From the NCBI RefSeq assembly GCF_000688255.1, contig NZ_JHYS01000015.1, forward strand, positions 1-64,000: a DNA stretch of 64,000 nt, given 5' to 3'. Below, in pieces: positions 2,673 through 57,389 of this stretch. Under the pieces are notes generated by a model. It saw nothing but the letters and a program-made list of their open reading frames with translations, was not told the origin of the DNA and did not search any database. Each line of letters opens with the position of its first letter. Within the stretch, counting starts at the first letter, position 1. This stretch comes from Simplicispira psychrophila DSM 11588. GTDB lineage: Bacteria; Pseudomonadota; Gammaproteobacteria; Burkholderiales; Burkholderiaceae_C. The translations under genes were made by a program, and so were the position numbers.

Positions 2673-3689
2673 TCACGGCGCGGGTTGAACAGGGTTTTGG
2701 GGCGCCGCCGTTTTTCGTACAAAAGTTGGGCCAAAACCGCCGGAATTGTACCAATGCAAAACCGTGCCGCTGCGTTCGACGATACCGCTGCCTACCTTGA
2801 TCTGGATACGCTGGCCCCGGGTGCGGCAAGCGGTGATCTGGCGCTGCAGCTCGGCCAGTTGGGCGGCGGCCGGCGTGGTCTGGTGCGCGCTGCGCAACCA
2901 GTGGCGTAACACGTTGGCCTGGCGCGCGCTGCTGAGCGCCTGCAAGGCGGTAATTTGCGGCGGTACTCCGACGTCCATCAGGTCTTGCTGCGCCAGTTCC
3001 AGCAGCAGCCCACTGGCCTGCGCGGCGTGGGCGCTGCTACGCGTGAAGGTGTCGCGAAACGCCGGAAACACCGTCTCCAGCGCCGGTAGCAAGCGGGCGC
3101 GGATGCGGTTGCGGGTATAGCGCTCGTCGGTGTTAGTCGGGTCTTCTACCCAGTCTTGGCCGCGTGCGACCAACCAGGCACGCACATCGGCGCCGGCCAC
3201 CGCTAATAAAGGGCGATGCCAGTCGATACCGCCGCGCTGCCAGTGGGCCGGCATGGCAGCCAAACCAGCGACGCCGGCACCGCGCGACAAAGCCAGCAGC
3301 AAGGTCTCGACTTGGTCGTCCGCGTGCTGCGCCAATGCTATTGATTGAATAGCTTCAAGTGCTTGATGTGATTGGGCTACAGCCTGAAAAGCCTTGTATC
3401 TGGCCGTGCGCGCTGCATCTTCCGGGCTTTGTCCGGGTTGGGGTCGGGCATCAACACGCTGCACGGTCAACGGTACGTGCAAGCGTGCGCACAGCGCGGT
3501 GCAATGCTGCTCAAAGCTGTCGGCTGCTGCCTGCAAACCATGGTGAACGTGGATGGCTTGCACCTGCCTCGGCCAGCGCGCGGCGCAGGCCAGCAACAGA
3601 GCAGTCGAATCGGCCCCGCCGCTCAGGCCGACAGCCAGCGGCAGCGCGGGGGCAAAGCCGCGCAGGGCCGCATCGAGAGTGACGGTCAT
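2673..3689 (-). CDS. tilS: tRNA(Ile)-lysidine synthase
   Basis: Converts cytidine-34 of the AUA-reading tRNA-Ile to lysidine using ATP and lysine, which changes both its charging and decoding. The PP-loop SGGADS sits at residues 23-28 of 338, and the N-type ATP pyrophosphatase fold follows (HHGLQAA, RTARYKAF, AQHADDQVETLLL). The downstream EDPTN...RNRIR stretch is typical of TilS. Residues around 100-115 (QAVAQSHQALEAIQSIALAQ) are encoded by a copy of the dispersed repeat described elsewhere in this annotation, so part of the ATPase domain surface seems built from a repeat insertion that kept the frame. It lies between accA (25 bp upstream) and lysC (28 bp downstream), probably co-transcribed. 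Confidence 0.93.
   Translation of the reverse strand: MTVTLDAALRGFAPALPLAVGLSGGADSTALLLACAARWPRQVQAIHVHHGLQAAADSFEQHCTALCARLHVPLTVQRVDARPQPGQSPEDAARTARYKAFQAVAQSHQALEAIQSIALAQHADDQVETLLLALSRGAGVAGLAAMPAHWQRGGIDWHRPLLAVAGADVRAWLVARGQDWVEDPTNTDERYTRNRIRARLLPALETVFPAFRDTFTRSSAHAAQASGLLLELAQQDLMDVGVPPQITALQALSSARQANVLRHWLRSAHQTTPAAAQLAELQRQITACRTRGQRIQIKVGSGIVERSGTVLHWYNSGGFGPTFVRKTAAPQNPVQPAP
3341..3391 (+). repeat. Dispersed inverted repeat, copy inside tilS
   Basis: GATTGAATAGCTTCAAGTGC followed by a second half GGGCTACAGCCTGAAA matches the family pattern (A)ATAGCT..AGCGCTT / GCTACAGCC, though it is diverged. It lies wholly inside the tilS coding sequence and keeps the reading frame. Confidence 0.5.
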
Positions 3690-3714
3690 GCCCGACCCTG
3701 GCCTGGCAGCGCGC

Positions 3715-4686
3715 TCAGCTGGCCTTGGTGTCGGTAAAACGGCCGTAACTTTGCAGGCGCTGGTAGCGGCGCCCTAGCAGGTCGGGCACCTTCAGATCGG
3801 CCACTTGGCGAAAGGCATCGCCCAGGGCGCGCTTGAGCAACGCCGACATTTGCTTGGGGTCGCGGTGTGCGCCACCGACCGGCTCGCTGACGATCTTGTC
3901 CACCAAGCCCAGCGCCTTGAGGCGGTGCGCGGTGATGCCCAGGGCTTCGGCGGCGTCTTGCGCGCGCTCGCTGGTCTTCCAGAGGATGGAGGCGCAGCCT
4001 TCAGGACTGATCACTGAATAGATGGAGTATTGCAGCATCAATAGCTGATCGCACACGCTCAGCGCCAGCGCGCCGCCAGAGCCACCTTCCCCAATGATGG
4101 TGGTGATGATCGGCACTTCGAGTTGCGCCATCTCGTAGATATTGCGACCAATCGCCTCGGACTGACCGCGCTCTTCGGCGTCGATGCCCGGAAAAGCGCC
4201 GGGCGTATCGACAAAGGTGAACACTGGCAGATGGAATTTTTCCGCCGTTTTCATCAGGCGCAACGCCTTGCGGTAGCCCTCGGGACGCGTCATGCCAAAG
4301 TTACGCAGTGCGCGCTCTTTGGTGTCGCGTCCTTTTTGGTGACCCAGCACCATGCAGGCGTGGCCATTGAAGCGCGCCAAGCCGCCAACAATCGATTTAT
4401 CGTCAGCAAAATGGCGATCGCCGTGCAGTTCAACAAAATCAGTGAACAGGTCACGGACGTAATCGAGCGTGTAAGGGCGCTCGGGGTGGCGTGCAATTTT
4501 GGTGATCTGCCACGGGGTCAACACTCCGTAGATGTCTTTGGTGAGCTGCTGGCTTTTTTTGCTCAGCTGGTCGATTTCTTCTGAAATATCGACGGCGCTT
4601 TCAGACTGCACATAGCGTAATTCTTCAATTTTGGATTCGAGTTCGGCAATCGGGTGCTCGAAATCCAGAAAGGTCTTTTTTGCCAA
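3715..4686 (-). CDS. accA: Acetyl-CoA carboxylase carboxyltransferase subunit alpha
   Basis: The alpha subunit of the carboxyltransferase half-complex transfers the carboxyl group from biotin to acetyl-CoA to make malonyl-CoA for fatty acid synthesis; AccD is the partner (not in this window). The 323-residue protein starts with [10 protein letters not shown] and has [21 protein letters not shown] and the [11 protein letters not shown] loop of the crotonase-like CT fold. The start is a TTG at 4686, preceded on the minus strand by AGGAGAAACAAC, a good ribosome-binding site. A longer in-frame ORF reaching to 5013 overlaps the glycosylase gene and is not supported. Length fits the family (about 320). 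Confidence 0.95.
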
Positions 4687-4730
4687 GTTGTTTCTCCTAG
4701 GGTGCCGTGCGCAAAGGGTCGCGCCAAGGC

Positions 4731-5402
4731 TCAATATGCGACCGGCAGCGGCGTCAGCGAGCGCCAAATATACCAAGTCGCCACGCTGCACCAAGGCTTC
4801 CATGCCTCGCCGACTTCGCGTGCTTCGCTGCGGCTGACCGGGTCGCCAGAAAAATAATTGTGGCTGATACCGTTGATCAGCCCGACATCGTCCAGCGGCA
4901 GCACATTGGGCCGCAGCAGGTGAAAAATCAGAAACATCTCCGCCGTCCAGCGGCCCACGCCGCGGATCGCAATCAGCTCGGTGATGATGGCTTCGTCGTC
5001 CATACCCTGCCAATCGTCGATATGCAATTGGCCGGCGTCAAAGTGCCGTGCCAGGTCGAGCAGATAGTCCGCCTTGCGCGCCGACAAGCCCGCTGCGCGC
5101 ATGTCTTCCATCTTGAGACCGAGTACCTGGGCCGGCGCCATGACCGTGGGCAACGCGGCAAAGCGATCCCACACCGTCTGCGCCGCCTTGACCGATATTT
5201 GCTGGCCGATGATGCTGCGCGCCAAGGTGGTGAAAGCATCGCCGCGCGACTCCAGCGCACCCTCACCCAGCTGCGGGATCAGGCGCTTCATCACCCGGTC
5301 TTTTTTCATCAGGTGCTTGCGCGCCTCCGCCCAATAAGCGGGGGCAGCGCCAGTCGTCGCTATGGGCAAGGCCGCATCCACTATTTTTTTAATAGCTATC
5401 AC
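4731..5402 (-). CDS. DNA-3-methyladenine glycosylase II-like (AlkA/HhH-GPD family)
   Basis: Base-excision repair glycosylase that removes alkylated purines. The 223-residue protein shows [12 protein letters not shown] (residues 63-74), the helix-hairpin-helix [10 protein letters not shown] (147-156) and the following LPLDDVGL, where D172 is in the place of the catalytic aspartate of AlkA. It lacks the N-terminal domain of E. coli AlkA, as do many short bacterial relatives. The ATG at 5402 and the first residues ([10 protein letters not shown]) lie inside a copy of the dispersed repeat, so the present start may have been supplied by the repeat; the conserved part only begins near residue 20. 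Placed between cysS and accA in one minus-strand run. Confidence 0.85.
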
Positions 5403-5436
5403 CGCATACCCTGTAAGCCTTTGAGGCCATTTTCAC
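5383..5436 (+). repeat. Dispersed inverted repeat, copy at glycosylase start
   Basis: TTTTTTTAATAGCTATCACC, then a second half CTGTAAGCC...GAGGCCATTTTCA, matching the family ends (ATAGCT near one side, GAGGCC..TTT at the other). It spans the start codon at 5402 and the short gap to cysS. Confidence 0.6.
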
Positions 5437-5447
5437 CATAAATACAC

Positions 5448-6833
<1,386 letters not shown>

Positions 6834-7032
6834 GGGGGGTGTCACTTGGAGGAAAGAAAAGCACACAGGCGCTACAGCCGCTATAGGCAACGTACCCAGG
6901 CCTGGCCGATGGCGCTGTCCGTGCGGGCTGCAAGGCAATGAAGGGGGTGCGCGGCGCACCCCTCAGTTACAATCGAAGGCAGTATATCGCTCACCGCCGG
7001 GCCTTGCGCCCCGCTTTCGCAAAGACACTCCC

Positions 7033-8133: not shown

Positions 8134-8280
8134 GCACCTGCCCCACGCTGATAACGCTAATATCGCCGACTGCAAACCCGCTCCGACCCGACAACCTTCT
8201 GATCACCACGCAGCGCTGCTGCAAGAGCAGCGGCCGAGCGCATGGCAGGACGGCACCCATCACCACTACCTGAGGTTCAA

Positions 8281-9753
8281 GTGCATTCCATTCGGTCACT
8301 TCGGTCACTCTCTTTGTCTTTCAACGGCCTCTTGTTGGCGATGTCTCTGGCGGCACTTGGCCACAGCGCACAGGCCAATACCCGGGTTGCAGCGCCCAAG
8401 GCCGGCGCCAAGACAGCCGTCAAGACAGCCGTCAAGACAGCTGTCAAGGCTGTCGCCAAAGCGCTCCCCAAAACCAGCCCTAAAACCAGCCCTAAAACCA
8501 GCCCTAAAGCCAGCCTTAAAACCGAGCCGAAAACTGTCGCCAAAGTCAGCGTGCGCAAGTCAGCGCGTGTATTGCCGGTTGCCTTGGGCGTGGCCGGCAT
8601 TGGTGCACTGGCCAGCAAAGCCAGCACGCAGGCCAACGCCCGCGACGCCGATGCAGAAAATCGCCTGATCGCCATCTACCGCCTGATTGGCGAAGCCCGC
8701 AACCGCGAGGCGATGGAGCCAGCGCGCAAACTGGTGCATGACCACCCCAACTTTCAGCTGGCGCAACTGGTTTACGGCGATTTGCTCAACAGCCAAGTGC
8801 GTCCGGTGCGGACGCTGGGCGACGTTTCGCCAGATGCCTCCAAGGCCCGTGCAGAGGCGCTGGCCGAGTTGCGCGAAGAATCACAACTGCGCCTGAAAGC
8901 CCTGCGCGACCGGCCACCCGCAGGCACGCTGCCATCGCAGTTCATGGCGCTGGCCCCCAGCAGCCGCCACGCCATCGCCATCGACACCTCGCGCTCGCGC
9001 TTGTATCTGTTTGAAAATTCGACTACCGGCCTGCACCTGATCGCCGATTTCTACATCTCCATCGGCAAGCTCGGCGCAGAAAAAAACACCGAGGGTGACA
9101 AACGCACCCCGCTGGGTATTTACTTCATCACCAGCAACCTCGATCCCAAGTCGCTGAAAAATTTTTACGGCTCTGGCGCCCTGCCGATCAACTACCCCAA
9201 CGCGCTCGACCAAAGCCGCGGCAAGACCGGCAGCGGCATCTGGCTGCATGGCACGCCGCCCGAGCAGTTTTCACGTGCGCCCCGGGCCTCGGACGGCTGC
9301 GTGGTGCTGGCCAACCCCGACCTGGAGCGCCTGGTGCGCACGGTGCAGGTACGCACCACGCCGGTGGTGATTGCACAAAGCCTGCAATGGCAAGCACCCC
9401 ATACGGTGGCCAACAACAGCCAGGCGTTTGCCGCCACCCTGACGCGCTGGCAACAGGCCAAAAGCAGCGGCGACTTGTCGCGGGTGTTGAATTTTTATAC
9501 CGCCGACTTTCGCAGCCAGGATAAAACCCTGGTGCAATGGACGCCCACCCTGCGCCAAGAAATGGAGCGCGTGCAGGGCCGCCCCATCCTGCTCAAGGAC
9601 GTCTCGTATTTACGCTGGACCGACACGGCGGACACCATGGTGGTGACCTTCGGTGAAGTAATTGAAGGCATGCGCACCGGCATGACCAAACGCCAGTACT
9701 GGATCCGCGAAGGCATCCAGTGGAAAATATTTTTTGAAGGAGTGATCGGATGA
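8281..9753 (+). CDS. L,D-transpeptidase (YkuD) with C-terminal NTF2-like domain
   Basis: Periplasmic enzyme expected to make 3-3 cross-links in peptidoglycan or attach proteins to it. I chose the GTG at 8281 because GAGG lies 6 bp upstream and it gives a clean signal peptide ([21 protein letters not shown]); an in-frame ATG at 8242 would add 13 residues. A Lys/Ala/Pro-rich linker made of 4-residue repeats (KTAV x3, KTSP x3) follows at about residues 44-80. The YkuD domain holds [30 protein letters not shown] and RASDGCVVL, with the catalytic cysteine in SDGCV. The last ~100 residues form an NTF2-like domain ([16 protein letters not shown]). The stop overlaps the start of ppiA by 4 bp. Confidence 0.88.
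8410..8445 (+). repeat. 12-bp tandem repeat, 3 units, in L,D-transpeptidase gene
   Basis: AAGACAGCCGTC occurs three times (last unit with one change). It encodes KTAV repeated, in frame, so unit gain or loss would change linker length only. Confidence 0.9.
8470..8517 (+). repeat. 12-bp tandem repeat, 4 units, in L,D-transpeptidase gene
   Basis: AAAACCAGCCCT occurs three times exactly plus a diverged fourth unit. It encodes KTSP repeats in the exported linker. Confidence 0.9.
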
Positions 9754-10322
9754 TTTCTAGACGAAATTCGGCTCTAGCCCTTAGCAGTATTGCGCTAGCA
9801 GCTATTTTTTCAGTAGCAACACCCGCCCTGGCGCAAGACGTCTCCAAGGTGAAACTGGCCACCTCGATGGGCGACATCGTGGTGCAACTCGACCCCGCCA
9901 AGGCGCCCAAAACGGTGGCCAATTTCTTGCAGTACGTCAAGGACAAGCACTATGACGGCACCATCTTTCACCGCGTCATCAACGGCTTCATGATCCAGGG
10001 CGGCGGCTTTACACCCGACATGGCACAAAAACCGGTGCGCGCACCGATTGCCCTGGAAGCCGCCAACGGCCTGAAAAACGATAAATACACCATTGCCATG
10101 GCACGCACCAGCGACCCCCAATCGGCCACGGCGCAGTTCTTCATCAATGTCAAGGACAATGCCTCGCTCAACGCTCCGCAGCCCGACGGCCACGGCTATG
10201 CCGTGTTTGGCAAAGTGGTGCAGGGCAGCGACGTTGTAGACAAAATCAAGGCCGTGGCCACGGGCTCGCAAGACGTGCCCACCACCCCCATCACCATCAC
10301 TTCTGCCACCCTGGTGAAGTAA
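9750..10322 (+). CDS. ppiA: Periplasmic cyclophilin-type peptidyl-prolyl isomerase
   Basis: 190 residues. A signal peptide (residues 1-29, ending ALAQD) precedes a complete cyclophilin domain with [34 protein letters not shown] and GYAVFGKV; R in FHRVI and the QFFIN stretch are catalytic-core residues. It isomerises Xaa-Pro bonds during folding of exported proteins. The ATG overlaps the stop of the upstream transpeptidase (ATGA), indicating translational coupling. The hydrophobic core of the signal peptide (residues 5-22) is encoded by a copy of the dispersed repeat, which is unusual. A cytoplasmic paralogue follows 21 bp downstream. Confidence 0.93.
9762..9815 (-). repeat. Dispersed inverted repeat, copy forming the ppiA signal peptide
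   Basis: In the reverse orientation this copy reads as the family: TCGGCTCTAGCCCTTAGCAG, then TGCGCTAGCAGCTATTTTTT. It lies inside the ppiA coding sequence and is translated as the hydrophobic part of the signal peptide ([14 protein letters not shown]). Confidence 0.8.
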
Positions 10323-10343
10323 TTTTTCAAGAAAGTCCCTGCC

Positions 10344-10850
10344 ATGAGCAACCCCCAAGTTGAACTGCACATTGCCGACTACGGCGTCATCACCCTCGAA
10401 CTGGATGCTGAAAAAGCCCCCAAGTCCGTCGAGAATTTTCTGTCCTATGTAAAAAAAGGCCACTACGACAACACCATTTTTCACCGCGTCATTCCCGGTT
10501 TTATGGTGCAAGGCGGCGGCTTTGAGCCCGGCATGAAGCAAAAAAGCGTCGATGAGGCGATTGAAAATGAAGCCCAGAACGGCCTGAAAAACGCCAACTA
10601 CACGGTGGCCATGGCGCGCACCAGCGACCCGCACTCGGCCACGGCGCAGTTTTTCATCAACGTCGCCAACAACGGCTTTTTGAACCACACCGCACCCAAC
10701 GCCAGCGGCTGGGGCTATGCCGTGTTTGGCAAAGTGATTTCTGGCACCGAGGTGGTGGACAAAATGAAGGCCGTTAAAACCGGCAACAAGGGCGGCCACG
10801 GCGACGTGCCAGTGACCGACGTGGTGCTTGAAAAAGCCGTCGCACTGTAA
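10344..10850 (+). CDS. ppiB: Cytoplasmic cyclophilin-type peptidyl-prolyl isomerase
   Basis: 168 residues without a signal peptide, closely similar to the preceding gene across the cyclophilin domain ([45 protein letters not shown]). It catalyses cis-trans isomerisation of prolyl bonds in the cytoplasm. Tandem ppiA-ppiB followed by lpxH matches the gene order ppiB-lpxH seen in many proteobacteria. Spacing to lpxH is 27 bp. Confidence 0.94.
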
Positions 10851-11689: not shown

Positions 11690-12514
11690 ATGACCGTGCT
11701 GTCTTTCTGGACCAGACTCTGGCGCCGCCTGCGCATCCGCATGGCCCCGGTGCCGCACATCCCGCCGCCGCTGTGGCTGCAGACACTGCAGCACTACCCG
11801 TTTTTGAACGCCTTGGCGCTGCACGAGCAGGGCAAGCTGCGCACGCTCAGCGCCCTGTTTTTGCAACACAAACAATTCCATGGCGGCCACGGCCTGGTGG
11901 TCACCGATGCCATGGCCGTGGCCATTGCCGCCCAAGCCTGCCTGCCGCTGCTGCACTGGGGCAATCCGCACCAGGCGCTGGGTTGGTACGACGATTTTGT
12001 CGGCATCGTGGTGCACCCCGGCGCGGTGCTGGCGCGGCGCCAAGTGACGGACGAGGCTGGCGTGGTGCACCAATACGCCGAGCCGCTGGTGGGCGAAGCC
12101 ATGGAGCGCGGCCCGATCATGCTGAGCTGGCACGAGGTGCAAGGCGCTGGCCACAGCGCGGCGCAGGGTACGAATGTGGTGGTGCATGAATTTGCCCACA
12201 AACTGGACATGCGCAGCGGCACGGCCGATGGTTGCCCGCCCCTGCCGGCCGGCTTCATGGGCACCCGCAGTGCCCGCGCTGCGCACGCACTGTGGTGGGC
12301 GGTGTGGGAGCCGGCGTATGCAGATTTTTGCGAGCGCGTGGCGATGGCGCAGCGTTTTGGTGGCGCACCGCCGTGGCTGGACGCCTATGGCGCCACCGCC
12401 CCCGCCGAATTTTTTGCCGTGGTCTGCGAGGCTTACTTTGTCCAGCGCGCGCAGTGCGCGCTGGAGTTGCCCACGCTGGTGCCTTTGCTGGACGCATTCT
12501 TTCAGCGCCCTTAA
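11690..12514 (+). CDS. mtfA: Zinc peptidase MtfA family (M90)
   Basis: 274 residues similar to MtfA (YeeI), a cytosolic zinc aminopeptidase that in E. coli binds the Mlc repressor and so affects glucose PTS expression. The zinc motif HEFAHKLD is at 166-173, followed by the downstream acidic ligand region (APAEFFAVVCEAYF). N-terminal FLNALALHEQGKLRTLSALFL and the WYDDFVGIVVHP stretch are typical of the family. It starts 29 bp after lpxH. Whether it has the Mlc role here is unknown. Confidence 0.88.
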   Translation: MTVLSFWTRLWRRLRIRMAPVPHIPPPLWLQTLQHYPFLNALALHEQGKLRTLSALFLQHKQFHGGHGLVVTDAMAVAIAAQACLPLLHWGNPHQALGWYDDFVGIVVHPGAVLARRQVTDEAGVVHQYAEPLVGEAMERGPIMLSWHEVQGAGHSAAQGTNVVVHEFAHKLDMRSGTADGCPPLPAGFMGTRSARAAHALWWAVWEPAYADFCERVAMAQRFGGAPPWLDAYGATAPAEFFAVVCEAYFVQRAQCALELPTLVPLLDAFFQRP

Positions 12515-12577
12515 AAAATATTAAATTGATAGCTATAGGCGCAAGCACAGCAAGCGCTTCAGGCATTTTTTATCAAT
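12514..12577 (+). repeat. Dispersed inverted repeat between mtfA and esterase
   Basis: AAATTGATAGCTATAGGCGC followed by AAGCGCTTCAGGCATTTTTT. It fills the gap between two convergent genes and overlaps both stop codons by a few bases. Confidence 0.75.
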
Positions 12578-21894: not shown

Positions 21895-21917
21895 CATTCC
21901 ACCGGACTTTCGAGTAC

Positions 21918-21979
21918 AAAATTTATAGCTGCTCGCGCCCGACAGTAAAGGGCTGGAGCCTGATTTGATTCAAAATTTT
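21918..21979 (+). repeat. Dispersed inverted repeat upstream of DUF2322 gene
   Basis: AAATTTATAGCTGCTCGCGC followed by AAAGGGCTGGAGCCTGATTT. It occupies nearly the whole gap between two small genes and ends 6 bp before the ATG at 21986. Confidence 0.7.
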
Positions 21980-21985: not shown

Positions 21986-22303
21986 ATGCACTTCGCCGAC
22001 CGCCTGAAACAACTTCCCTCCGCCAGCCACCTCGCCGCCCTGCATCTGCTGGACGCCGATGGCCAGACTCTCGCCACCATTGAAAACAAGCCCGGCCAGA
22101 CCGGGTCGCTGGTGGTGTATGCCGCCCTGGCGGCGCTGTATGGCGGCAGCATCACGCCCGCCGCCGCCCACCTGGGGCTGGAGTGGTACGCCGAGCACAC
22201 GGCAGATGCGCTGGCCTTCCCCGGCAAGCACCCCAACATCGACCGCTTGCTGGCCTGGGCGCAAGGTGCTGAGAGCTACCGCGCGCAGCCTGTCGCTGCG
22301 TGA
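21986..22303 (+). CDS. DUF2322-like small protein
   Basis: 105 residues: FADRLKQLPSASHLAALHLLDADG, then TIENKPGQTGSLVVY, LEWYAEHTADA and GKHPNIDRLLAW. This matches my memory of the DUF2322 family, small conserved proteins of beta- and gammaproteobacteria without known function. The ATG at 21986 was preferred over a TTG 21 bp upstream. It is flanked on both sides by copies of the dispersed repeat. Confidence 0.65.
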   Translation: MHFADRLKQLPSASHLAALHLLDADGQTLATIENKPGQTGSLVVYAALAALYGGSITPAAAHLGLEWYAEHTADALAFPGKHPNIDRLLAWAQGAESYRAQPVAA

Positions 22304-22335: not shown

Positions 22336-22386
22336 ATTTTGATAGCTGCTAGCGCTTACCACATAAGCGCTACAGCCCGATTTGAT
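22336..22386 (+). repeat. Dispersed inverted repeat, cleanest copy
   Basis: ATTTTGATAGCTGCTAGCGC then TTACCACATAAGCGCTACAG and CCCGATTTGAT. The inner dyad AGCGCTTA/TAAGCGCT is nearly perfect around a 5-nt centre. It separates two convergent genes. Confidence 0.85.
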
Positions 22387-23679
22387 CTATAACTGCGAGC
22401 CCAGCAGCGAGGCAAAGCGCTCGGCCAGCTTTTCGCGCCAGGGGCGCTCCAGCCAGGCCTCATAGGTGACGCGGCGCGCGCGCTGCAGGTCGTCTTCAAA
22501 CACAGCCGTCTGGCGCGCGGCAAAGGCCGGGTCGTAGACGTTCAGATTGGCTTCGTCGTTCAGGCGAAACGAGCGGTTGTCGAAATTGGTCGAGCCGACC
22601 GAGACCATGCGGTTGTCCACGATCATGACTTTGCAGTGGTACATAGTGGGCTCGTAGGTATAGATTTGCGCACCGGCCTGCAGCAGCGGCCCCCAGGTGG
22701 CACGCGAAGCGGCCTTGACAGTTTCGGTGTCGGTGTGCTCCCCCGGCGTGATGAAACGCAGGCGCACACCGCGCTGCAGGGCGTCGATCAGCAGCTGGCG
22801 CGTCAGGGAGTCGGGCACAAAGTAGGCGACTGAAAAGTCGATGCTGTGCTCGGCGGCGGTGATCGCCAGGTGGTACATCAGCTGCATGCTCTCGCTGCCG
22901 CTGGAGGGCGAGCTGGAAAACATCTGCGCCTGCATGGTGCCCGCCGGCGCGATGGGCGGAAAGTAGCGCGCGCCGTGCATCACGCGGCCGGTGGCCTTGA
23001 GCCAGTTGTCTAAAAAGGTGGCCTGCATCTGCGCCACCACCGGCCCCGTGACCTGGTAGTGCGAATCGCGCCAGTGATCGGGGTCTTGCGCGTGGCCCGT
23101 CCACAGCGGCGCAATGCCCACACCCCCGGTAAAACCGATCTGGCCATCGACCACCAGCAGCTTGCGGTGGGTGCGGTTGTTCAGGCGCGCCAAGTCATAC
23201 CACTTGGGTTCATGGAATTTTTCGATCTCGACGCCGGCGTCCTTCATTTCGGTCAGAAAGCTCTCTTCGATCTTGGCGCTGCCCACCCAGTCGAGCAGCA
23301 CATGCACCGCAACGCCGGCGCGGGCGCGCTCGCTCAGGGCCTGGGCAAACTGCTGGCCGATGTCGCCGGACCAGTAGATGTAGGTTTCAAAGGTGATGCT
23401 GGTGTGCGCGCCGCGAATGGCCTGCAGCATGGGTGGGAAGATCTGGTCGCCGTTGAGCAGTTCGACCACTTGGTTGCCATCCAGCAAACCCGGGCCGAGC
23501 AACAGACCCATATCGCGCTCGAACTGCGGGTCGGCGCTGGTGTAAAGCCGTGCGATCTGGTGCTCGATCTTCTTCTCGCCTGCCGTGAAGTTGAGTGCCA
23601 GCAACACCAGGGCACAGGTGGCGATAAAGGTCAGGAACACCACCATCACTGTTCGGCGTTTTTTTTTCATGAGCGCCAT
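22387..23679 (-). CDS. Phospholipase D family cardiolipin synthase
   Basis: 430-residue membrane-anchored protein with one N-terminal transmembrane segment (VVFLTFIATCALVLLALNF) and two HKD domains: NRTHRKLLVVDGQ...GFTGG and MYHCKVMIVDNRM...GSTNFDNRS. Two such motifs make one active site in cardiolipin synthases of the ClsB type. The substrate is probably phosphatidylglycerol or related lipids. The start at 23679 (MALMKKKRR) is the best of three close ATGs. Divergent from a second PLD-family gene 180 bp away. Confidence 0.87.
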   Translation of the reverse strand: MALMKKKRRTVMVVFLTFIATCALVLLALNFTAGEKKIEHQIARLYTSADPQFERDMGLLLGPGLLDGNQVVELLNGDQIFPPMLQAIRGAHTSITFETYIYWSGDIGQQFAQALSERARAGVAVHVLLDWVGSAKIEESFLTEMKDAGVEIEKFHEPKWYDLARLNNRTHRKLLVVDGQIGFTGGVGIAPLWTGHAQDPDHWRDSHYQVTGPVVAQMQATFLDNWLKATGRVMHGARYFPPIAPAGTMQAQMFSSSPSSGSESMQLMYHLAITAAEHSIDFSVAYFVPDSLTRQLLIDALQRGVRLRFITPGEHTDTETVKAASRATWGPLLQAGAQIYTYEPTMYHCKVMIVDNRMVSVGSTNFDNRSFRLNDEANLNVYDPAFAARQTAVFEDDLQRARRVTYEAWLERPWREKLAERFASLLGSQL

Positions 23680-28700: not shown

Positions 28701-28713
28701 GACCAAAATACCA

Positions 28714-28766
28714 GTCAAAACCGGCTCTAACGCTTATACAGAAAGCGCTAGCAGCTATTAAAAAAA
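28714..28766 (-). repeat. Dispersed inverted repeat after M23 peptidase
   Basis: Reverse orientation: TCAAAACCGGCTCTAACGCT, then AAAGCGCTAGCAGCTATTAA. It runs directly into the terminator hairpin at 28766. Confidence 0.85.
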
Positions 28767-28790
28767 GAGCACCTTGCGGTGCTCTTTTTG
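28766..28790. terminator. Bidirectional terminator between M23 peptidase and acyl-CoA synthetase
   Basis: AAGAGCACC/GGTGCTCTT stem with a TTGC loop, A-run on one side and T-run on the other, between two convergent genes. Confidence 0.9.
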
Positions 28791-35368: not shown

Positions 35369-35379
35369 TTCAAGGTCTG

Positions 35380-35398
35380 ACGCATACCGGGTATGCGT
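35380..35398. promoter_or_regulatory. Palindromic candidate operator upstream of HxlR regulator
   Basis: Perfect 9-bp inverted repeat ACGCATACC/GGTATGCGT with a 1-bp centre, 119 bp before the HxlR-type gene. Palindromes of this length in front of a dimeric winged-helix regulator often serve autoregulation; the link is inference. Confidence 0.55.
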
Positions 35399-35399
35399 T

Positions 35400-35446
35400 A
35401 TGAGCTACTAAACTTGTAGCAAAATAGATTCAGCGCTATAGTCCGC
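35400..35446 (+). repeat. Weak, degenerate copy of the dispersed repeat
   Basis: GAGCTACTAAACTTGTAGCA then AGATTCAGCGCTATAGTCCG keep the GAGCTACTA and AGCGCTA...CC blocks but little else. Doubtful member. Confidence 0.3.
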
Positions 35447-35822: not shown

Positions 35823-35841
35823 AACCACACAAAATATAAGT

Positions 35842-35891
35842 GAAATCAGCCTCCAGCCCTTTAGATACATGCGCTAGTAGCTATCATTTAT
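35842..35891 (-). repeat. Dispersed inverted repeat upstream of FKBP
   Basis: Reverse orientation: GAAATCAGCCTCCAGCCCTT, then ATGCGCTAGTAGCTATCATT. It lies between the HxlR gene and the FKBP gene. Confidence 0.75.
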
Positions 35892-35931
35892 ATAGTAATT
35901 TCATCGTACCCACGCAATAAAAGGATTGTTT

Positions 35932-43167: not shown

Positions 43168-43202
43168 AAACAAAGCAGAGCCTCGACTGCGCTTTGTTTT
43201 TG
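43168..43202 (+). terminator. Rho-independent terminator after the SDR gene
   Basis: AAACAAAGC/GCTTTGTTT stem with a 14-bp interior, followed by T-run. Confidence 0.7.
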
Positions 43203-43245
43203 ATAGCTACTACCGCTTACCCAGAAAGCGTTAGAACACTATTTA
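43194..43245 (+). repeat. Dispersed inverted repeat between SDR and ahpF
   Basis: TTTTTGATAGCTACTACCGC then AGAAAGCGTTAGAACACTAT. It overlaps the tail of the terminator between two convergent genes. Confidence 0.8.
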
Positions 43246-43253
43246 ACCCACAA

Positions 43254-46226: not shown

Positions 46227-46279
46227 TTAAAAACGGCTGCAACGCTTATGTATTCTGCGCTTATAGCTATCGTTTTTAA
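46227..46279 (-). repeat. Dispersed inverted repeat between bfr and VF530 gene
   Basis: Reverse orientation: TTAAAAACGGCTGCAACGCT, then TGCGCTTATAGCTATCGTTT. It lies directly after the bfr terminator. Confidence 0.8.
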
Positions 46280-46640: not shown

Positions 46641-49130
46641 TCACGGCTCGATGCGGTGCTGCCAATAGCGCTGCTGCTGCGCGCGCTCGCACCGCACCTG
46701 CGCCGGCTGCGCCGACTGCCAGGTGGCTGCGCCGCAGTGCGCTGAATCCCACACCGCAATACCGCGCTCGCGGTAGCGTTGCATCACTTGCGCTGCCGGG
46801 TGGCCAAAGCGGCTGCGGTAAGCCGCCTGCACCAGCGCGGCACGCGGTTGCACGGCGTCCAGAAATGCGCCACTCGACGAAGTCTTGCTGCCGTGGTGCG
46901 GCACCAGCAGGACATCGGCGGCCAGCGCCGCTTGGCGATCGAGCAGCGCTTGTTCTTGGGCCTTTTCAATATCGCCCACCAGCAGCGCCACCGCCCCCCG
47001 CCCTGACGCGATACGCAGCACGCAGCTTTGGGTATTTGGGTTGTGCGCCCGCTCGGCGCCGCCGCCTTCACCCGGCAAGGGATGCAGCACGGCAAAGTCC
47101 ACGCCGTCCCATTGCCACTGCTGGCCGGCCAGACACGGCTGCACAGGATGCAGCGTTTGCAGGTGGTGTTCGCCTTCAATCGAGCCCATCAACTGCGCCT
47201 GCGGCTGCTGCGCCAGCACCGCCGCCGCGCCGCCGGTGTGGTCGCTGTCGCGGTGGCTGAGCATCAGCACATCGACACGCGCATCCAATGCACGCAGCAG
47301 CGGCACCAGCACCCGGCCACCGGCATCGCTGTGGGCGCTGTAGCGCGGGCCGGTGTCATACAGCAGCGTGTGGGTGGCGGTGCGCACCAGCACGGCATTG
47401 CCCTGGCCGACGTCGGCAGCGAGTAATTCAAATTGCCCCGGTGGCGGGCGCGGCGCCTGCCACAGCAACACCGGCAACAGCAGCGGCAGACCCAGCAAAC
47501 GCACCGACCACGGCAGGCGCATGGCCAGCAGCACGCCGCCAGCGACACCCGCCAGCCCAGCCCACAACGGCGCCGCGGCCACCCAGACGCTGGCCAGTGG
47601 CAGCGCGGCCAACCACTGCAACCACACCGCCATGCCCTGCACTGCCCAACCTGCCAAATGCCACAGCGGGGCCCATAACACACCGGCAAAGGCCAGCGGC
47701 GTGACCACCAGCGTCACCCACGGAATCGCCAGCAGATTGGCCAGCAACCCGACCAATGACACCTGACCAAACAGCAGCAGCGTGAGCGGCGTCAGCGCCA
47801 GCGTGACCACGCCCTGCTCACGCAACAAGGACATAAAGTGGCCTCTAACGCCCTTACTGCCTGCGCTAGAAGCTCCTTTATCAGTAGCAAACAGTACCGC
47901 CACCGCCACAAAACTCAGCCAGAATCCGGCTTGCCACAAAGCCCACGGATCAGGCAGCACCACCACCGCGCAGGTCAGCAGCCAAGCGGGCGGCCACGGC
48001 CAGCGCCGCCCGCTCAGGCGCAGCAGCGCCGCCGTGCCGAGCATGGCCACGGTACGCTGCGCCGGCACACCCCAGCCGCTGAACAGCGCATACGCCAGCG
48101 CCAGCAGCACCCCGCCGACCAACGCCGCCGAAGGTGCCGGCCAGCGCAGGCACAGACGTTCCGAGCGCCGCCACAACCATCGCACCAACAGCGCCGCCAC
48201 CCAGGCAAACAGCGTGATGTGCAGACCCGAAATACTCATCAGATGGGCCACGCCGGTGGCACGAAACACATCCCAATCGCTGCGATCAATGGCGCGCTGA
48301 TCGCCCGTCACCAAGGCCGCCACCACACCGGCGATGCGCACCGCAGTGGCGTCGGTCGGGTCGCTGGCCAGACGGTTCAGGATGGCATCGCGCACCGACT
48401 GGCGGGCTTGCTCGATCGGATAGCGCCAAGTGGTATCCAGGCGCTGTGGTGCTATGTCATGCGCCCCAACGCGCACATAACCGACGCCCTGCACCCCCTG
48501 CCCCCACAGCCACAGTTCGTAGTCAAAACCGTGCGGATTGCGCTCGCCGTGCGGCGCTTTCAAACGCGCTGTCAGGCGCCAGCGCTCGCCGGCCCGCAAT
48601 GCTGGCACCGCGCCCGGCGGCTGCGTTACCGCGCTGGCGCGACTGCCCTCACGCCAGTCGCCGGCGTACCAGCCAAGATCGATCAGTGGGGGCAGCTGCA
48701 CCGCCCTGCCGTCCAGCTGCGCCGCCTCAACCGCCAGACGCAGGCGCACACCGCCGCCTTCAATCGGCTGCGGCATGGCGGCAATCACCCCGGTGATACG
48801 CACATCGCGCCCCTCCAGCGCCGGGCTCAAAGCCTGCGCCGCAAAGTCGCTGGCACGCAGGCCGCACACGGCAAACAGCAGGCCGGCTGCGGCCAGAACC
48901 ACAGCGATGCCCACTCCTCTGCGCCGCCGTCCCCAGCACCACAGCGCACCCAGCGCCGCTGCGCTGCCCAGCCCCAGCAGCGCATACAGCGCCAGCGACC
49001 ACAGCACCGGCTGACGCACTTGTAGCGCTGTCCCTAATAAAACACCGAGCAGCAGCGGCACCAGCGCCGACGAACGCGGCGGCGCCAGCGCAAAATCAAG
49101 CGTGGGCTGGGCAGGCGCAGAAATATCCAT
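46641..49130 (-). CDS. comEC: DNA uptake channel protein ComEC/Rec2
   Basis: 829 residues; the inner-membrane channel for single-stranded DNA in transformation. N-terminal DUF4131 domain, Competence domain with GVAHLMSISGLHITLF, many membrane segments and a C-terminal metallo-beta-lactamase-like domain (LLAADVGQGNAVLV, HRDSDHTGGAA, VPHHGSKTSSS). One copy of the dispersed repeat (47835-47885) is translated inside the protein (around DKGASSAGSKGVRGHFMSLL) between membrane segments, with no frame break. The frame is otherwise intact. Confidence 0.93.
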   Translation of the reverse strand: MDISAPAQPTLDFALAPPRSSALVPLLLGVLLGTALQVRQPVLWSLALYALLGLGSAAALGALWCWGRRRRGVGIAVVLAAAGLLFAVCGLRASDFAAQALSPALEGRDVRITGVIAAMPQPIEGGGVRLRLAVEAAQLDGRAVQLPPLIDLGWYAGDWREGSRASAVTQPPGAVPALRAGERWRLTARLKAPHGERNPHGFDYELWLWGQGVQGVGYVRVGAHDIAPQRLDTTWRYPIEQARQSVRDAILNRLASDPTDATAVRIAGVVAALVTGDQRAIDRSDWDVFRATGVAHLMSISGLHITLFAWVAALLVRWLWRRSERLCLRWPAPSAALVGGVLLALAYALFSGWGVPAQRTVAMLGTAALLRLSGRRWPWPPAWLLTCAVVVLPDPWALWQAGFWLSFVAVAVLFATDKGASSAGSKGVRGHFMSLLREQGVVTLALTPLTLLLFGQVSLVGLLANLLAIPWVTLVVTPLAFAGVLWAPLWHLAGWAVQGMAVWLQWLAALPLASVWVAAAPLWAGLAGVAGGVLLAMRLPWSVRLLGLPLLLPVLLWQAPRPPPGQFELLAADVGQGNAVLVRTATHTLLYDTGPRYSAHSDAGGRVLVPLLRALDARVDVLMLSHRDSDHTGGAAAVLAQQPQAQLMGSIEGEHHLQTLHPVQPCLAGQQWQWDGVDFAVLHPLPGEGGGAERAHNPNTQSCVLRIASGRGAVALLVGDIEKAQEQALLDRQAALAADVLLVPHHGSKTSSSGAFLDAVQPRAALVQAAYRSRFGHPAAQVMQRYRERGIAVWDSAHCGAATWQSAQPAQVRCERAQQQRYWQHRIEP
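47835..47885 (-). repeat. Dispersed inverted repeat inside comEC
   Basis: Reverse orientation: AAAGTGGCCTCTAACGCCCT, then CCTGCGCTAGAAGCTCCTTT. Translated in frame in a loop between membrane segments. Confidence 0.75.
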
Positions 49131-49729: not shown

Positions 49730-49749
49730 CGCCCGGTGCGGGGGCTGCG

Positions 49750-51285: not shown

Positions 51286-51385
51286 ACAGAAGACTGCTCT
51301 CTCAGTGGAGTATAAAAATAAACATTTCTCCCCAATGATTACACCAGAATCGCCTGACCGGCCTTGCGGGCCATCAACAACCGGC

Positions 51386-53752: not shown

Positions 53753-53763
53753 GGGAGAGTTAT

Positions 53764-53815
53764 TCAAAAATGAGAGCTACTAGCACTTACTACATAAGGG
53801 CTAGAGGCCAAAAAC
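53764..53815 (+). repeat. Dispersed inverted repeat between parE and parC
   Basis: TCAAAAATGAGAGCTACTAG then CACTTACTACATAAGGGCTA and GAGGCCAAAAA. It fills most of the 76-bp gap in an operon. Confidence 0.8.
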
Positions 53816-53828
53816 ACGCATATGTGGC

Positions 53829-55823
53829 TCAAATATCGACTTCGACGCTGTCGCCGTGCAGTTCCATCAGCTCGCGCCGCGCGCCGGCTTCGCCCTTGCC
53901 CATCAGCTTGGTGATCAGGCTCTCGGTCGCGGCAAAGTCCATGCCGCCCAGTTGCACCGGCAGCAGGCGGCGGGTATCGGGGTTGAGGGTGGTTTCCCAC
54001 AGTTGCTCGGCGTTCATTTCACCCAGGCCCTTGAAGCGGCTGATGGCGCATTTGTCACGCGCTACGCCGTCTTTCACCGCCTTGTCGAGGATGGCGGTCA
54101 GCTCGCCCTCGTCCAGCGCATACACCTTCGCAGCCGGTTTTTTGCCGCGTGCGGGCACATCCACCCTGAACAGCGGCGGGCGTGCCACATAAATGTGGCC
54201 GGTGTCGATGAGCTTGGGAAAGTGGCGGAAGAACAAAGTCAGCAGCAGCACTTGGATGTGCGAGCCATCCACGTCGGCGTCCGAGAGGATGCAAATCTTG
54301 CCGTAGCGCAGGCCGCTCAGATCCGGCTCGTCGTTAGCGCCATGCGGATCGACGCCGATGGCGACGGAAATATCGTGGATTTCATTGTTGGCAAACAGCC
54401 GGTCGCGCTCGACTTCCCAGGTGTTGAGCACCTTGCCGCGCAGCGGCAGCACCGCCTGAGTTTCCTTGTCGCGTCCCATCTTGGCGCTGCCGCCGGCGCT
54501 GTCACCCTCGACCAGAAACACCTCGTTGTAGGCAAGGTCGCGGCTTTCGCAATCGGTCAGCTTGCCCGGCAGCACCGCCACGCCCGAGCCTTTGCGCTTT
54601 TCGACTTTTTGACCCGCCTTCTGGCGCGTCTGTGCAGCTTTGATCGCCAGTTCAGCCAGCTTCTTGCCGTATTCGACATGCTGGTTCAGCCACAGCTCCA
54701 GCGCCGGACGGACAAAACTGCTGACCAGCCGCACCGCATCGCGCGAATTGAGGCGCTCTTTGATCTGGCCTTGAAACTGCGGATCGAGCACCTTGGCCGA
54801 GAGCACATAGTTGGCACGCGCGAACACATCCTCGGGCATCAGTTTGACGCCCTTGGGCAGCAAGCTGTGGAACTCAATAAAGCTTTTGACGGCTTGGAAC
54901 AGGCCATCGCGCAGACCGCTCTCGTGCGTGCCGCCGGCGCTGGTCGGGATCAGGTTGACGTAGCTCTCGCGCACCGGCGCGCCCTCTTCGGTAAAGGCCA
55001 CGCACCAGGAGGCGCCCTCGCCTTCGGCAAAGCTGTCGTGGCCGCTGTCGGCAAAGCCTTCGCCCTCAAACAATGGAATCACCGGGTCGGTGACCAACGT
55101 CTGCGCCAGGTAGTCGCGCAGCCCGCCCTTGTATTGCCAGGTTTGCGTTTCGCGTGTCTTCTCGTTGATCAGCGACACCGACACGCCGGGCATCAGCACC
55201 GCTTTGCTGCGCAGCAGGTGGATCAGCGCGGGCATCGGCAACTGGCTGGACTCAAAGTATTTGGCGTCGGGCCAGGCGCGCACGCTGGTGCCTTGGCGGC
55301 GGTCGCCCGCCACTTGCGGACGCAAGGCCAGCGGCTCGATAACGTCGCCGCCGGAGAACACCAGCGTCGCCACTTGGCCTTCACGGTGGCTGGCCACTTC
55401 CATGCGCTGCGACAGCGCATTGGTCACCGAGACGCCGACGCCGTGCAGGCCGCCGGAGAAGCTGTAAGCGCCGCCTTTGCCTTTGTCGAACTTGCCGCCG
55501 GCGTGCAGTTGGGTGAACACCAGCTCGATGACGGGTGCGTTTTCTTCCGGGTGCAGGCCAAACGGAATGCCGCGGCCGTCGTCGTCAATGCTGACTGAGC
55601 CATCGGCGTGCAGCGTAACTTTGATTTTTTTGCCGTGGCCGGCGAGGGCTTCGTCGGCGGCGTTGTCCAGCACTTCTTGGATGACGTGCAGCGGGTTGTC
55701 GGTGCGCGTGTACATACCCGGGCGTTGCTTGACCGGCTCTAAGCCCTTGAGGACGCGGATCGAGCTTTCGGAATATTCGGGGGGGATTGCGGAAAGGGAT
55801 GCGGGAGTGGGTTTAACGGCCAT
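53829..55823 (-). CDS. parE: DNA topoisomerase IV subunit B
   Basis: 664 residues; ATPase subunit. GHKL ATP-binding VLDNAADEALAG (51-62) and DGRGIPFG; Toprim region with VEGDSAGGSAKMGRD and DADVDGSHIQ. The start at 55823 (MAVKPTPASL) is the first conserved Met; the upstream extension overlaps the divergent MFS leader. It precedes parC in transcription order. Confidence 0.95.
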   Translation of the reverse strand: MAVKPTPASLSAIPPEYSESSIRVLKGLEPVKQRPGMYTRTDNPLHVIQEVLDNAADEALAGHGKKIKVTLHADGSVSIDDDGRGIPFGLHPEENAPVIELVFTQLHAGGKFDKGKGGAYSFSGGLHGVGVSVTNALSQRMEVASHREGQVATLVFSGGDVIEPLALRPQVAGDRRQGTSVRAWPDAKYFESSQLPMPALIHLLRSKAVLMPGVSVSLINEKTRETQTWQYKGGLRDYLAQTLVTDPVIPLFEGEGFADSGHDSFAEGEGASWCVAFTEEGAPVRESYVNLIPTSAGGTHESGLRDGLFQAVKSFIEFHSLLPKGVKLMPEDVFARANYVLSAKVLDPQFQGQIKERLNSRDAVRLVSSFVRPALELWLNQHVEYGKKLAELAIKAAQTRQKAGQKVEKRKGSGVAVLPGKLTDCESRDLAYNEVFLVEGDSAGGSAKMGRDKETQAVLPLRGKVLNTWEVERDRLFANNEIHDISVAIGVDPHGANDEPDLSGLRYGKICILSDADVDGSHIQVLLLTLFFRHFPKLIDTGHIYVARPPLFRVDVPARGKKPAAKVYALDEGELTAILDKAVKDGVARDKCAISRFKGLGEMNAEQLWETTLNPDTRRLLPVQLGGMDFAATESLITKLMGKGEAGARRELMELHGDSVEVDI

Positions 55824-55942
55824 GGTGCGCGATTGTAGTGCTGGTGTTTCATACAGTCTTTGCCAGCCATCGACCGCACCGCGCCGCTTTGCCGTCATCA
55901 CACTGTCAAGCAAAAAACCACGCTATTCGTTACATTCGCCCG

Positions 55943-57160
55943 ATGTCTTTCGAAGCTCGCAAACTCTCCCTGTTCCAGGTGCTCGCCTGCGGCGCCGCCA
56001 TCGTCACCTTGTCCATGGGCATTCGCCACGGCTTTGGCTTGTGGCTGCAACCCATCACGCAAGAGATGGGATGGACCCGCCAGTCGTTTGCGCTGGCGCT
56101 GGCCATCCAGAACTTGTCCTGGGGCGTGATCGGCGTCTTTGCTGGCATGGCCGCCGACCGTTTTGGCGCCTTTCGCGTGCTCATGGGCGGCGCCGTGCTG
56201 TATGGCCTGGGCCTGGCCGGCATGGCACTGTCACCCACCGAGACGCTGTTTGCCCTGACGGCTGGCGTGCTAATCGGCGCGGCGCAGGCCGGCACCACCT
56301 ATGCCGTGATTTACGGCGTGCTGGGGCGCCAGATTGCCGCCGACAAGCGCTCCTGGGCCATGGGTGTGGCAGCAGCAGCCGGCTCGTTCGGCCAGTTTTT
56401 GATGGTGCCGCTGGAGGGATTTTTCATCTCCACCCTGGGCTGGCAAACCGCGCTGCTGGCACTGGCGCTGATGGTGCTGCTGATCGTGCCGCTGGCTTTT
56501 GGTCTGCGTGAGCCGGGTTTCCAGGGCGCCGCGCCGCTGCAACGCCGCCAGAGCATTGCCGAAGCGCTGACCGAGGCGTTTCGCCACCGCAGCTTTTTAT
56601 TGCTCACCGTTGGCTACTTTGTCTGCGGCTTTCAGGTGGTATTCATTGGCGTGCACATGCCCAGCTATCTGAAAGACCACGGTCTGTCCTCCCAGGTAGC
56701 CAGCTACGCCCTGGCGCTGATCGGCCTGTTCAACGTGGTCGGCACCTATATGGCCGGCGCGCTGGGCCAGCGCTTGGCCAAGCGCCATATTCTGGCGTTC
56801 ATCTATTTCACCCGCGCCGTGGTCATCAGCATCTTCTTGCTGGTGCCGCTGTCTCCGACCAGCGTATATATCTTTTCCGCCGTCATGGGCACGCTGTGGC
56901 TATCCACGGTGCCGCCAACCAATGCGCTGGTGGCACAAATTTTTGGTGTGCAACACCTGTCCATGCTCGGCGGCTTTGTATTTTTCAGCCACCAGCTGGG
57001 CAGCTTCATGGGGGTTTGGCTGGGCGGCTATCTGTACGACCGCACCGGCAGCTACGATATCGTCTGGTATCTGGCCATTGGCCTGGGCGTGCTGGCGGGC
57101 CTGATCAACCTGCCAATCAAGGAACAGCCCATCCAGCGTCCGGCACTGCAAACCGCCTGA
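55943..57160 (+). CDS. MFS transporter (oxalate/formate antiporter-like)
   Basis: 405 residues with 12 membrane segments. GIRHGFGLWLQPITQEMGW and the DRFGAFRVLMGGAVLYG loop are typical of the OFA/monocarboxylate-like branch of the MFS. It moves small organic acids in known relatives; the substrate here is unknown. The start is at 55943 (MSFEARKLS). A 55-residue membrane protein gene starts 2 bp after its stop. Confidence 0.87.
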   Translation: MSFEARKLSLFQVLACGAAIVTLSMGIRHGFGLWLQPITQEMGWTRQSFALALAIQNLSWGVIGVFAGMAADRFGAFRVLMGGAVLYGLGLAGMALSPTETLFALTAGVLIGAAQAGTTYAVIYGVLGRQIAADKRSWAMGVAAAAGSFGQFLMVPLEGFFISTLGWQTALLALALMVLLIVPLAFGLREPGFQGAAPLQRRQSIAEALTEAFRHRSFLLLTVGYFVCGFQVVFIGVHMPSYLKDHGLSSQVASYALALIGLFNVVGTYMAGALGQRLAKRHILAFIYFTRAVVISIFLLVPLSPTSVYIFSAVMGTLWLSTVPPTNALVAQIFGVQHLSMLGGFVFFSHQLGSFMGVWLGGYLYDRTGSYDIVWYLAIGLGVLAGLINLPIKEQPIQRPALQTA

Positions 57161-57161
57161 T

Positions 57162-57329
57162 ATGTCCCGCACACTTGCTCCTGCCACTTCCGAGGCCCAG
57201 CGCCCTGCCGTCTGGCGGCGCTGGGCCGTGCGCGCACTGGTGCTGATCGCTTTGCTGCTGGTGTTTGCGCTGTACAGCAACCCCGACTTCATGGTGATGC
57301 TGGCTGATCAGATGTGGGCTTGTTTTTAA
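57162..57329 (+). CDS. Small single-pass membrane protein, 55 residues
   Basis: ATG at 57162, one base after the MFS stop; 55 codons then TAA at 57327. The sequence is MSRTLAPATSEAQRPAVWRR, then AVRALVLIALLLVFALYSNP as one membrane segment, then a short tail ending ADQMWACF. The tight spacing to the MFS gene suggests co-expression, possibly as an accessory subunit. Function not known. Confidence 0.55.
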   Translation: MSRTLAPATSEAQRPAVWRRWAVRALVLIALLLVFALYSNPDFMVMLADQMWACF

Positions 57330-57330
57330 G

Positions 57331-57389
57331 CATCAAAACAGCCTCTAACCCTTACAAAATAAGCACTACAAGCTATTTAAATAATAGCT
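57331..57389 (-). repeat. Dispersed inverted repeat upstream of methyltransferase
   Basis: Reverse orientation: ATCAAAACAGCCTCTAACCC, then TAAGCACTACAAGCTATTTA. It lies between the 55-residue gene and the methyltransferase. Confidence 0.75.

Follow-up and report, generated by a model that had tools for sequence, protein, structure and literature searches.

A patchily distributed family of dispersed palindromic repeats in Simplicispira psychrophila and related bacteria, with some copies read as protein

The window analysed here, the first 64,000 nucleotides of contig NZ_JHYS01000015.1 of Simplicispira psychrophila DSM 11588, carries copies of a short palindromic repeat. They lie in the spacers between genes and also within, or over the starts of, genes for TilS, a HhH-GPD DNA glycosylase, a cyclophilin-type peptidyl-prolyl isomerase (PPIase) and a ComEC-like protein (Table 1). 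A sequence-only reading of the window had listed thirteen positions, and a doubtful one at 35400, as a dispersed inverted repeat family. All thirteen were recovered by an nhmmer profile with scores of 27.1 to 53.3 bits (E 1.4e-6 or better), and the reversed window gave no match at E ≤ 1 and five at E ≤ 10; the doubtful position was matched as well, although weakly. The profile was seeded with 30 copies of the same genome (3.6 Mb in 38 contigs), including those at 22336 and 28714, and was rebuilt twice using its own matches in a 464-kb sample, composed of the window and 20 stretches of 20 kb. Since seed and rebuilds drew on copies of one genome, the window scores are partly self-referential. 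An independent fixed pattern, ATAGCTNNTNNCGCTTN7AAGCGNTANAGNC with up to three mismatches, gave 126 + 134 = 260 matches genome-wide and none when reversed. The family is therefore real: thirteen of thirteen positions match one profile, the genome-wide excess is large and the dyad is common to the copies, these being the two points on which the family had been staked. At E ≤ 0.01 the sample contains 94 distinct copies, in both orientations as had been claimed (44 on the plus and 50 on the minus strand), which extrapolates to about 730 copies per genome or approximately one per 5 kb.

Table 1. Copies of the repeat in the window, with their setting and profile score
Copy and setting	Position	Strand	Score and remarks
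In tilS (ORF 2673-3689, -)	3337..3388	+	nhmmer 27.4 bits
Between cysS-like gene (ends 5448, -) and HhH-GPD DNA glycosylase gene (-)	5381..5437	+	37.9 bits
Encoding leader of cyclophilin-type PPIase (ORF 9750-10322, +)	9759..9817	-	39.6 bits; Pro_isomerase domain
In 58-bp spacer of two convergent genes	12519..12574	+	39.4 bits; script gene calls
Closely upstream of small gene (21986-22303, +)	21915..21972	+	37.3 bits
Convergent spacer, type B, clear dyad	22336..22389	+	48.4 bits
Convergent spacer, adjoining separate canonical terminator hairpin	28713..28770	-	45.4 bits
Weak copy (position 35400)	35376..35420	-	19.1 bits, E 5e-4
Between co-directional genes, type A (AAAGGGCT)	35838..35895	-	53.3 bits
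Convergent spacer	43191..43248	+	36.0 bits
Between co-directional genes	46227..46278	-	31.4 bits
In comEC-like gene (46641-49130, -)	47839..47888	-	27.1 bits; Competence/DUF4131/Lactamase_B domains
Between co-directional genes	53765..53811	+	32.5 bits
Upstream of gene with start near 57403	57332..57388	-	37.5 bits

In an alignment on the core with the flanks left free, conservation reaches about 19 bp to the left of AGCT and as far to the right of AGGC, and on both sides the information drops to background at a sharp edge; the element is about 70 bp long and not the roughly 50 bp first estimated. Its approximate consensus is AATTTGCTATTAAATTAATAGCTGCTAGCGCWTGTnnnnWAAGSGCTAGAGGCCnATTTGACTTAAAATT, in which a mini-hairpin GCTAT-N7-ATAGC is followed by the main dyad CTAGCGC...GSGCTAG and then by AGAGGCC...ATTTGACTTAAA. 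The mean GC content is 39.8% over 74 bp and 49.1% in the core. From 85 full-length aligned copies, 51 belong to a type A (AAAGGGC), 32 to a type B (AAGCGC) and two to neither. Whole elements prevail, because none of the 11 ATAGCTGCTAG and none of the 14 AAGSGCTAGAGGC half-motifs in the 464 kb lie outside masked elements, the mask having taken in weak and partial matches up to E 10.

The element has a second, symmetric form. Four pairs of copies in the 464 kb are less than 300 bp apart, all of them inverted (+/- order), and these constitute a long form with a 76-bp core in a unit of about 104 bp; three of the four fold as long hairpins. The core measures exactly 76 bp in 18 of 22 long forms retrieved. 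A pattern for this form matched 18 times in the own genome (reversed pattern, 2) and 38 times in a genome of another genus, G147 (reversed, 0); altogether 19 of 29 searched genomes match, the reversed control giving 0 to 4. Covariation was assessed on 73 forward long forms of 76 bp, taken among the matches listed for five genomes. Their stem columns 13-36 are paired in 905 of 1752 instances against 786 expected from column composition, while sliding the partner by 1-3 positions leaves at most 569 pairs against 531 (an excess of 38). Five inner pairs reach p ≤ 0.002 in a permutation that ignores relatedness, and 18 long forms retrieved as loci, partly overlapping the 73, show 227 of 432 pairs against 184 expected. 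When the 73 forms are turned loop-T-rich, G.T mispairs outnumber A.C mispairs by 211 to 155, a hint that one strand of the long form is folded. As single-stranded DNA, one idealised long form, its flanks typed by hand, has a folding energy of -41 kcal/mol (z -12); for four short forms of the window the z values run from -4.1 to -0.1, and RNAalifold found no structure with noteworthy pairs in the short forms. A similar wobble asymmetry in short forms was dropped: the own copies favour G.T at one pair and those listed for G006 favour, by eye, A.C.

The copies avoid genes and promoters. Only 18 of the 94 are intragenic, against a mean of 77 (minimum 65) over 200 random placements, and among spacers of at least 45 bp a copy is present in 22 of 35 convergent, 46 of 170 co-directional and 4 of 57 divergent ones. 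Copies lie at a median of 15 bp from a stop codon. Orientation is indifferent to that of co-directional genes (23:25), and a bias towards a replication strand is rejected by a ratio of 45:41 with respect to the leading strand (86 of the 94 copies, two stretches without clear skew being excluded). Gene calls came from a codon-usage script and are approximate; thus the copy at 3341 was put outside tilS, and the TilS domain match shows it to be inside. The location between genes claimed for most copies holds for the 76 of 94 that fall outside predicted genes, but not for those at 3341 and 47835, which are wholly intragenic, nor for those at 9762 and 5383, which overlap gene starts.

These exceptions provide clear cases of a repeat turned leader peptide, start codon with N-terminus, and membrane-protein loop. 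Residues ~4-23 of the cyclophilin-type PPIase, which by eye make up most of an apparent signal peptide, are read from the copy; the nearest named records of this protein are mostly from Acidovorax, at 79-82% identity. A tandem cyclophilin-like gene follows (9750-10322 and 10344-10850, 79% identical over 120 bp), and the repeat-encoded leader was seen in the first only. The first residues of the glycosylase would be read from a GTG within the copy, the probable start codon. In the ComEC-like protein a 17-residue hydrophilic loop is encoded by the copy, and in TilS (assigned by NCBIfam/Pfam) about 18 residues, ~101-118.

Three of these protein-coding sites, namely the cyclophilin leader, the glycosylase start and the ComEC loop, carry copies common to 7 to 11 genera. 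Of 29 other genomes (compared genomes bear G-numbers, G000 being the own one, and loci L-numbers), 11 from ten genera have an equally oriented copy 10-94 bp after cysS at E < 0.05, and G021 has one at E 0.31; Acidovorax/Paenacidovorax loci L033, L035 and L037 have a counterpart of the 5383 copy. Other genomes have at this junction a short, overlapping or diverged spacer without a copy, and G301 and G180, with one pattern match each, keep by eye the coding half alone. Among the 18 genomes that could be placed, the cyclophilin copy is matched at E ≤ 1 in 14, from seven genera, and not in G002, G005, G058 or G260; the survey left out G007, which was unplaceable, and the N-termini of G014, G034 and G140. 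On named Acidovorax/Paenacidovorax/Rhodoferax contigs (L033, L035, L037, L083, L098) this site matches with 16.7-32.2 bits. For the comEC copy, 23 of 26 genomes, from eleven genera, have a match at E ≤ 1, five of the matches being weak (9.6-13.9 bits); none is found in the repeat-poor G002 and G005 or in G009, which has 59 pattern matches and a loop of equal length.

Other sites differ among relatives. A block of about 40 kb was compared among G003, G315, G318 and, over part of its length, G016. At four of its five closely flanked sites every aligning genome carries a copy; at the remaining one, none is recognisable in G318. All four sites comparable between G011 and G018 are common to both; one of them lacks a copy in G016 and G003, which align on either side of it with a gap about 110 bp shorter. 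The own copies at 3341, 5383 and 9762 have counterparts in G003 of equal context and orientation, and the tilS copy occurs also in G315, G318 and G016 (context matched by eye). At 21918, G003, G315 and G318 carry a copy of equal place and orientation (13.9-29.3 bits), none being recognised in G016, and at 12514 G003 and G315 carry it in reverse orientation. The 22336 site has a copy in G008 and none in G013 by its right-hand anchor, and by its left-hand anchor a copy in G016 and none in G318, G315 or G003. At 28714 a copy is found in two of ten relatives by the left-hand gene (G008, G004) and in four of eight by the right-hand gene (G013, G014, G004, G006). Orthologous copies retain the AGCT and CGC/GCG positions, a judgement by eye that was not quantified. 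Since some sites are shared across genera and others are variable, the family comprises both very old copies and sites whose occupancy changes from relative to relative, and presence or absence at aligned sites, together with junctions devoid of the element, points to gain or loss as a unit. As a separate observation, G008 contains one region twice (L192, L216), each 83% identical to the window and with opposite repeat orientations; this assembly may mix strains.

Within its genus the fixed pattern matches 18 of 20 genomes, the own included, with 0 to 351 matches each, and within the GTDB family 83 of 299, the reversed pattern never exceeding one per strand. More than 50 matches occur in 33 genomes among those listed (own included), the largest number being 501, and the distribution is patchy even within genera. 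Near relatives have few or none (G002 0, G007 0, G005 4); in 200 kb of G002 the profile gave no match at E ≤ 1, and a de novo k-mer search disclosed, by eye, no comparable family. A search of 200 genomes from across the order matched four: the own genome, G147 from the same family and two outside it. Each of these last two, among 195 out-of-family genomes, has a single match with three mismatches, and the reversed pattern occurs singly in 15 of the 195; outside the family the element is at chance level. Two Variovorax loci (L051, L045) show by eye, after an M90 peptidase gene, hairpins of GCTAT..ATAGC type that are short and lack the main dyad; these may be a related shorter repeat.

Taken together, these features are probably best accommodated by an old, non-autonomous family of the repetitive extragenic palindromic (REP) or miniature inverted-repeat transposable element (MITE) kind, specific to Comamonadaceae-like bacteria, by now mostly fixed and retained as stem-loops at gene 3'-ends. 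Presence and absence at aligned sites and the sharp edges of the element suggest mobility as a unit. The element would once have spread as a unit by way of single-stranded DNA processed at its hairpins, perhaps through a Y1-type (HUH) enzyme. Surviving copies may have been kept where a stem-loop right after a stop codon was tolerated or useful, in mRNA end protection, supercoil or protein docking, and others through absorption into genes. Among causes of retention we rank a function at the 3'-end before protein docking, and this before slow loss, only weakly. The REP/MITE-like nature proposed by the sequence-only reading thus finds agreement in copy number, extragenic 3'-end placement, random orientation, the long palindromic form and site presence or absence, but not in a target duplication or in a link to a REP-associated tyrosine transposase (RAYT).

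The last point concerns the closest competitor, according to which the repeat is the mobile partner of a REP-type tyrosine transposase, a relative of RAYTs or of the terminal-inverted-repeat-associated TIRYTs; we hold this as a tentative and rather doubtful possibility. The own Y1 protein scores 75.7 bits against NCBIfam REP_Tyr_transpos (cut-off 80), and its locus bears GGGGTCAG and CTGACCCC ends, as TIRYTs do and as do many of the loci examined. A copy in the same orientation lies within 55 bp after the Y1 stop codon in 10 of 24 genomes (E ≤ 1, 6.2-45.4 bits), and the own genome, G029 and G247 have a further copy upstream of the gene. These adjacent copies count as approximately one event because they share one position, and a copy stands equally near the stop codon of 78 of 423 own genes (18%). 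Among 40 chosen genomes PF01797 is found at E ≤ 0.001 exactly once in 25, more often in 10 and never in 5, and single long proteins of this family (~230-370 residues) occur in carriers and non-carriers alike. The gene that had been proposed as a check is thus present in most carriers searched, but also in genomes almost or wholly free of copies (G026, G037, G081, G301, G180, G002, G005, with 0 to 4), and it is lacking in three genomes with at least ten pattern matches, G003 (152), G273 (10) and G304 (16). Gene and copy number being uncoupled, the Y1 gene is rejected as sole determinant of copy number; moreover, the repeat consensus has neither GGGGTCAG nor the GTAG tags. The link between gene and repeat is a lead. 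Apart from this locus, fragments of IS200-like transposase genes stand at the first bases of two contigs (G000:C5:1-186 and G000:C16:2-181), perhaps as collapsed insertion sequences.

Somewhat less probable, and in our opinion unlikely, is that the copies are genome-wide binding sites of one DNA-binding protein of nucleoid- or chromosome-organising type, each kept by selection. The core is near invariant and the loop near random across the 94 copies, which were selected by the profile, and copies persist at fixed positions in 7 to 11 genera. In G304 the core reads AGCTT/AAGCT for GCGCTT/AAGCGC, changed in both half-sites in 11 of 13 copies among those listed. The comEC loop points in the same direction. 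Over 24 sequences the repeat codons are better conserved in nucleotides (identity 0.66) than in amino acids (0.50), the 60-codon flanks showing the reverse (0.77-0.79 and 0.78-0.81), with third-codon identity of 0.65 in the repeat vs 0.63-0.66 in the flanks; this suggests a segment conserved as DNA rather than as protein, the effect being modest and tree-blind. However, about 70 bp far exceeds a usual site, the two half-motifs tried are absent outside elements, near relatives have few copies or none, and the avoidance of genes and promoters resembles that of REPs.

An identity as intrinsic terminators or as a regulatory RNA family would explain the 3'-end bias and the G.T excess of the long forms, but is most improbable given the random orientation to genes and a consensus whose stem is not followed by a long run of T. 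Nor do copies clearly take the place of canonical terminators: such a terminator is present in 9 of the 22 convergent spacers with a copy and in 7 of the 21 without (7 of 13 if only copy-free spacers of 45 bp or more are counted). No copy has an Rfam match: the covariance search returned tRNA alone at the gathering score, and none of nine matches at E ≤ 10 falls on a copy. The window has a tRNA gene at 1235-1324 (-, 54.8 bits), and at 60147-60365 a low-complexity tract of CAGCAGC type, which holds 13 of the 21 copies of a 33-nt unit and coincides with a weak isrG match below the gathering score. The Betaproteobacteria toxic sRNA RF02278 was rejected as identity, its matches being unrelated sequence at two other places of the genome, one above the gathering score (L031 1501-1564, G000:C1:252320-252383) and a weaker one at C8:143299. 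A DNA-uptake-like sequence kept through biased transformation, consistent with the genome-wide dispersal, sequence dialect and patchy presence, is rejected as scarcely credible, since uptake sequences are 10-12 bp long whereas this is a composite of about 70 bp, of which no tested half occurs as an isolated short motif in excess outside masked elements.

The preferred reading, an old mobile palindromic family now mostly fixed, has to be held against several observations that weigh on it. No target-site duplication was evident at element-free sites, where the flanks are too diverged to reveal one, and no parent transposase with matching ends was found among 33 copy pairs 300-3500 bp apart in the 464 kb (7 in +/- order; the enclosed genes were listed and left unclassified). 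The most similar pair of the own genome is 91% identical, so that no recent jump is seen. The presence of a Y1 gene does not follow copy number. A single ancestral insertion can account for the Y1-adjacent copy, and 18% of own genes have a copy as near. In the short form, stem pairs covary little and stay near expectation except for one, and 49 of the 51 type A copies keep a G.G mismatch in the stem. The long form is missing from carriers G006, G011, G017, G318, G104, G140, G058 and G260, and G003 and G013 have one each. Finally, substitution of terminators by copies is rejected by the lack of a clear difference in canonical terminators, which leaves a terminator role at the 3'-end without support.

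Beyond the question of origin, a sequence-specific factor acting throughout the genome, and lost in some lineages, might actively maintain the repeats as DNA, an idea we entertain with little confidence. If so, genera that have the factor would keep copies at the same fixed sites, even in genes whose protein drifts, and its loss would be followed by joint decay of all copies (in G301 and G180, and perhaps in G002, G005 and G007, if these once had copies), coding halves persisting as new N-termini, signal peptides and loops. Because some sites are stable across genera, the element permits asking whether short palindromic repeats are junk, symbionts or parts of the chromosome.

No description of this element was found in the open-access literature; most subscription papers were outside that scope and an earlier description may exist. 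The Beta-proteobacterial repeat element (BRE; Hot 2011, PMC3110155) is 75-91 bp long, with 69% GC in Bordetella, often in tandem and in up to 29 copies. It shares with the present element the hosts Acidovorax, Polaromonas, Delftia and Rhodoferax and a mainly intergenic, partly intragenic location; at 39.8% GC, dispersed in hundreds of copies and with its four close pairs all inverted, the present one is set apart by description and was not assigned to BRE. The terminal inverted repeats of a MITE are seen in the long form only, with symmetric ends GCTAT..ATAGCTGCTNGCGC, and assignment to the MITEs is incomplete, neither a duplication nor a parent having been seen. GTAG/CGTC REPs (Di Nocera 2013, PMC3733652) are likewise dispersed palindromes mostly in convergent or co-directional spacers, with intragenic cases and a patchy distribution, and the traits extragenic, high copy and palindromic all recur here (260 matches, 76 of 94 extragenic with one at a stretch edge, a dyad). 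Those REPs measure 20-40 bp, the present element about 70 or 104 bp, and its consensus stem foot has no GTAG or CGTC tag; membership fails because no GTAG/GTGG stands 0-2 nt 5' of the hairpin, which is preceded by ATAGCTG or, on the opposite strand, by GGCCT. The main text of that paper mentions neither Acidovorax, Delftia, Polaromonas, Comamon-, Rhodoferax nor betaproteobacteria. REPIN/RAYT systems (Bertels and Rainey 2011, PMC3116915) resemble the element in high copy number and in being hairpins of REP doublets (PMC6006769), but the long form here has a fixed 76-bp core and a copy number untied to the Y1 gene. The repeat families flanking TIRYTs (PMC3733652, PMC6006769) find a parallel in the copy at the 3' side of the TIRYT-like gene, although the TIRYT terminal repeat GGGGWSAS differs from the dispersed element. 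Rickettsia palindromic elements, named in PMC3733652, are also palindromic repeats read as segments of proteins; they belong to another host group, and the element described here is, unlike them, mostly extragenic.

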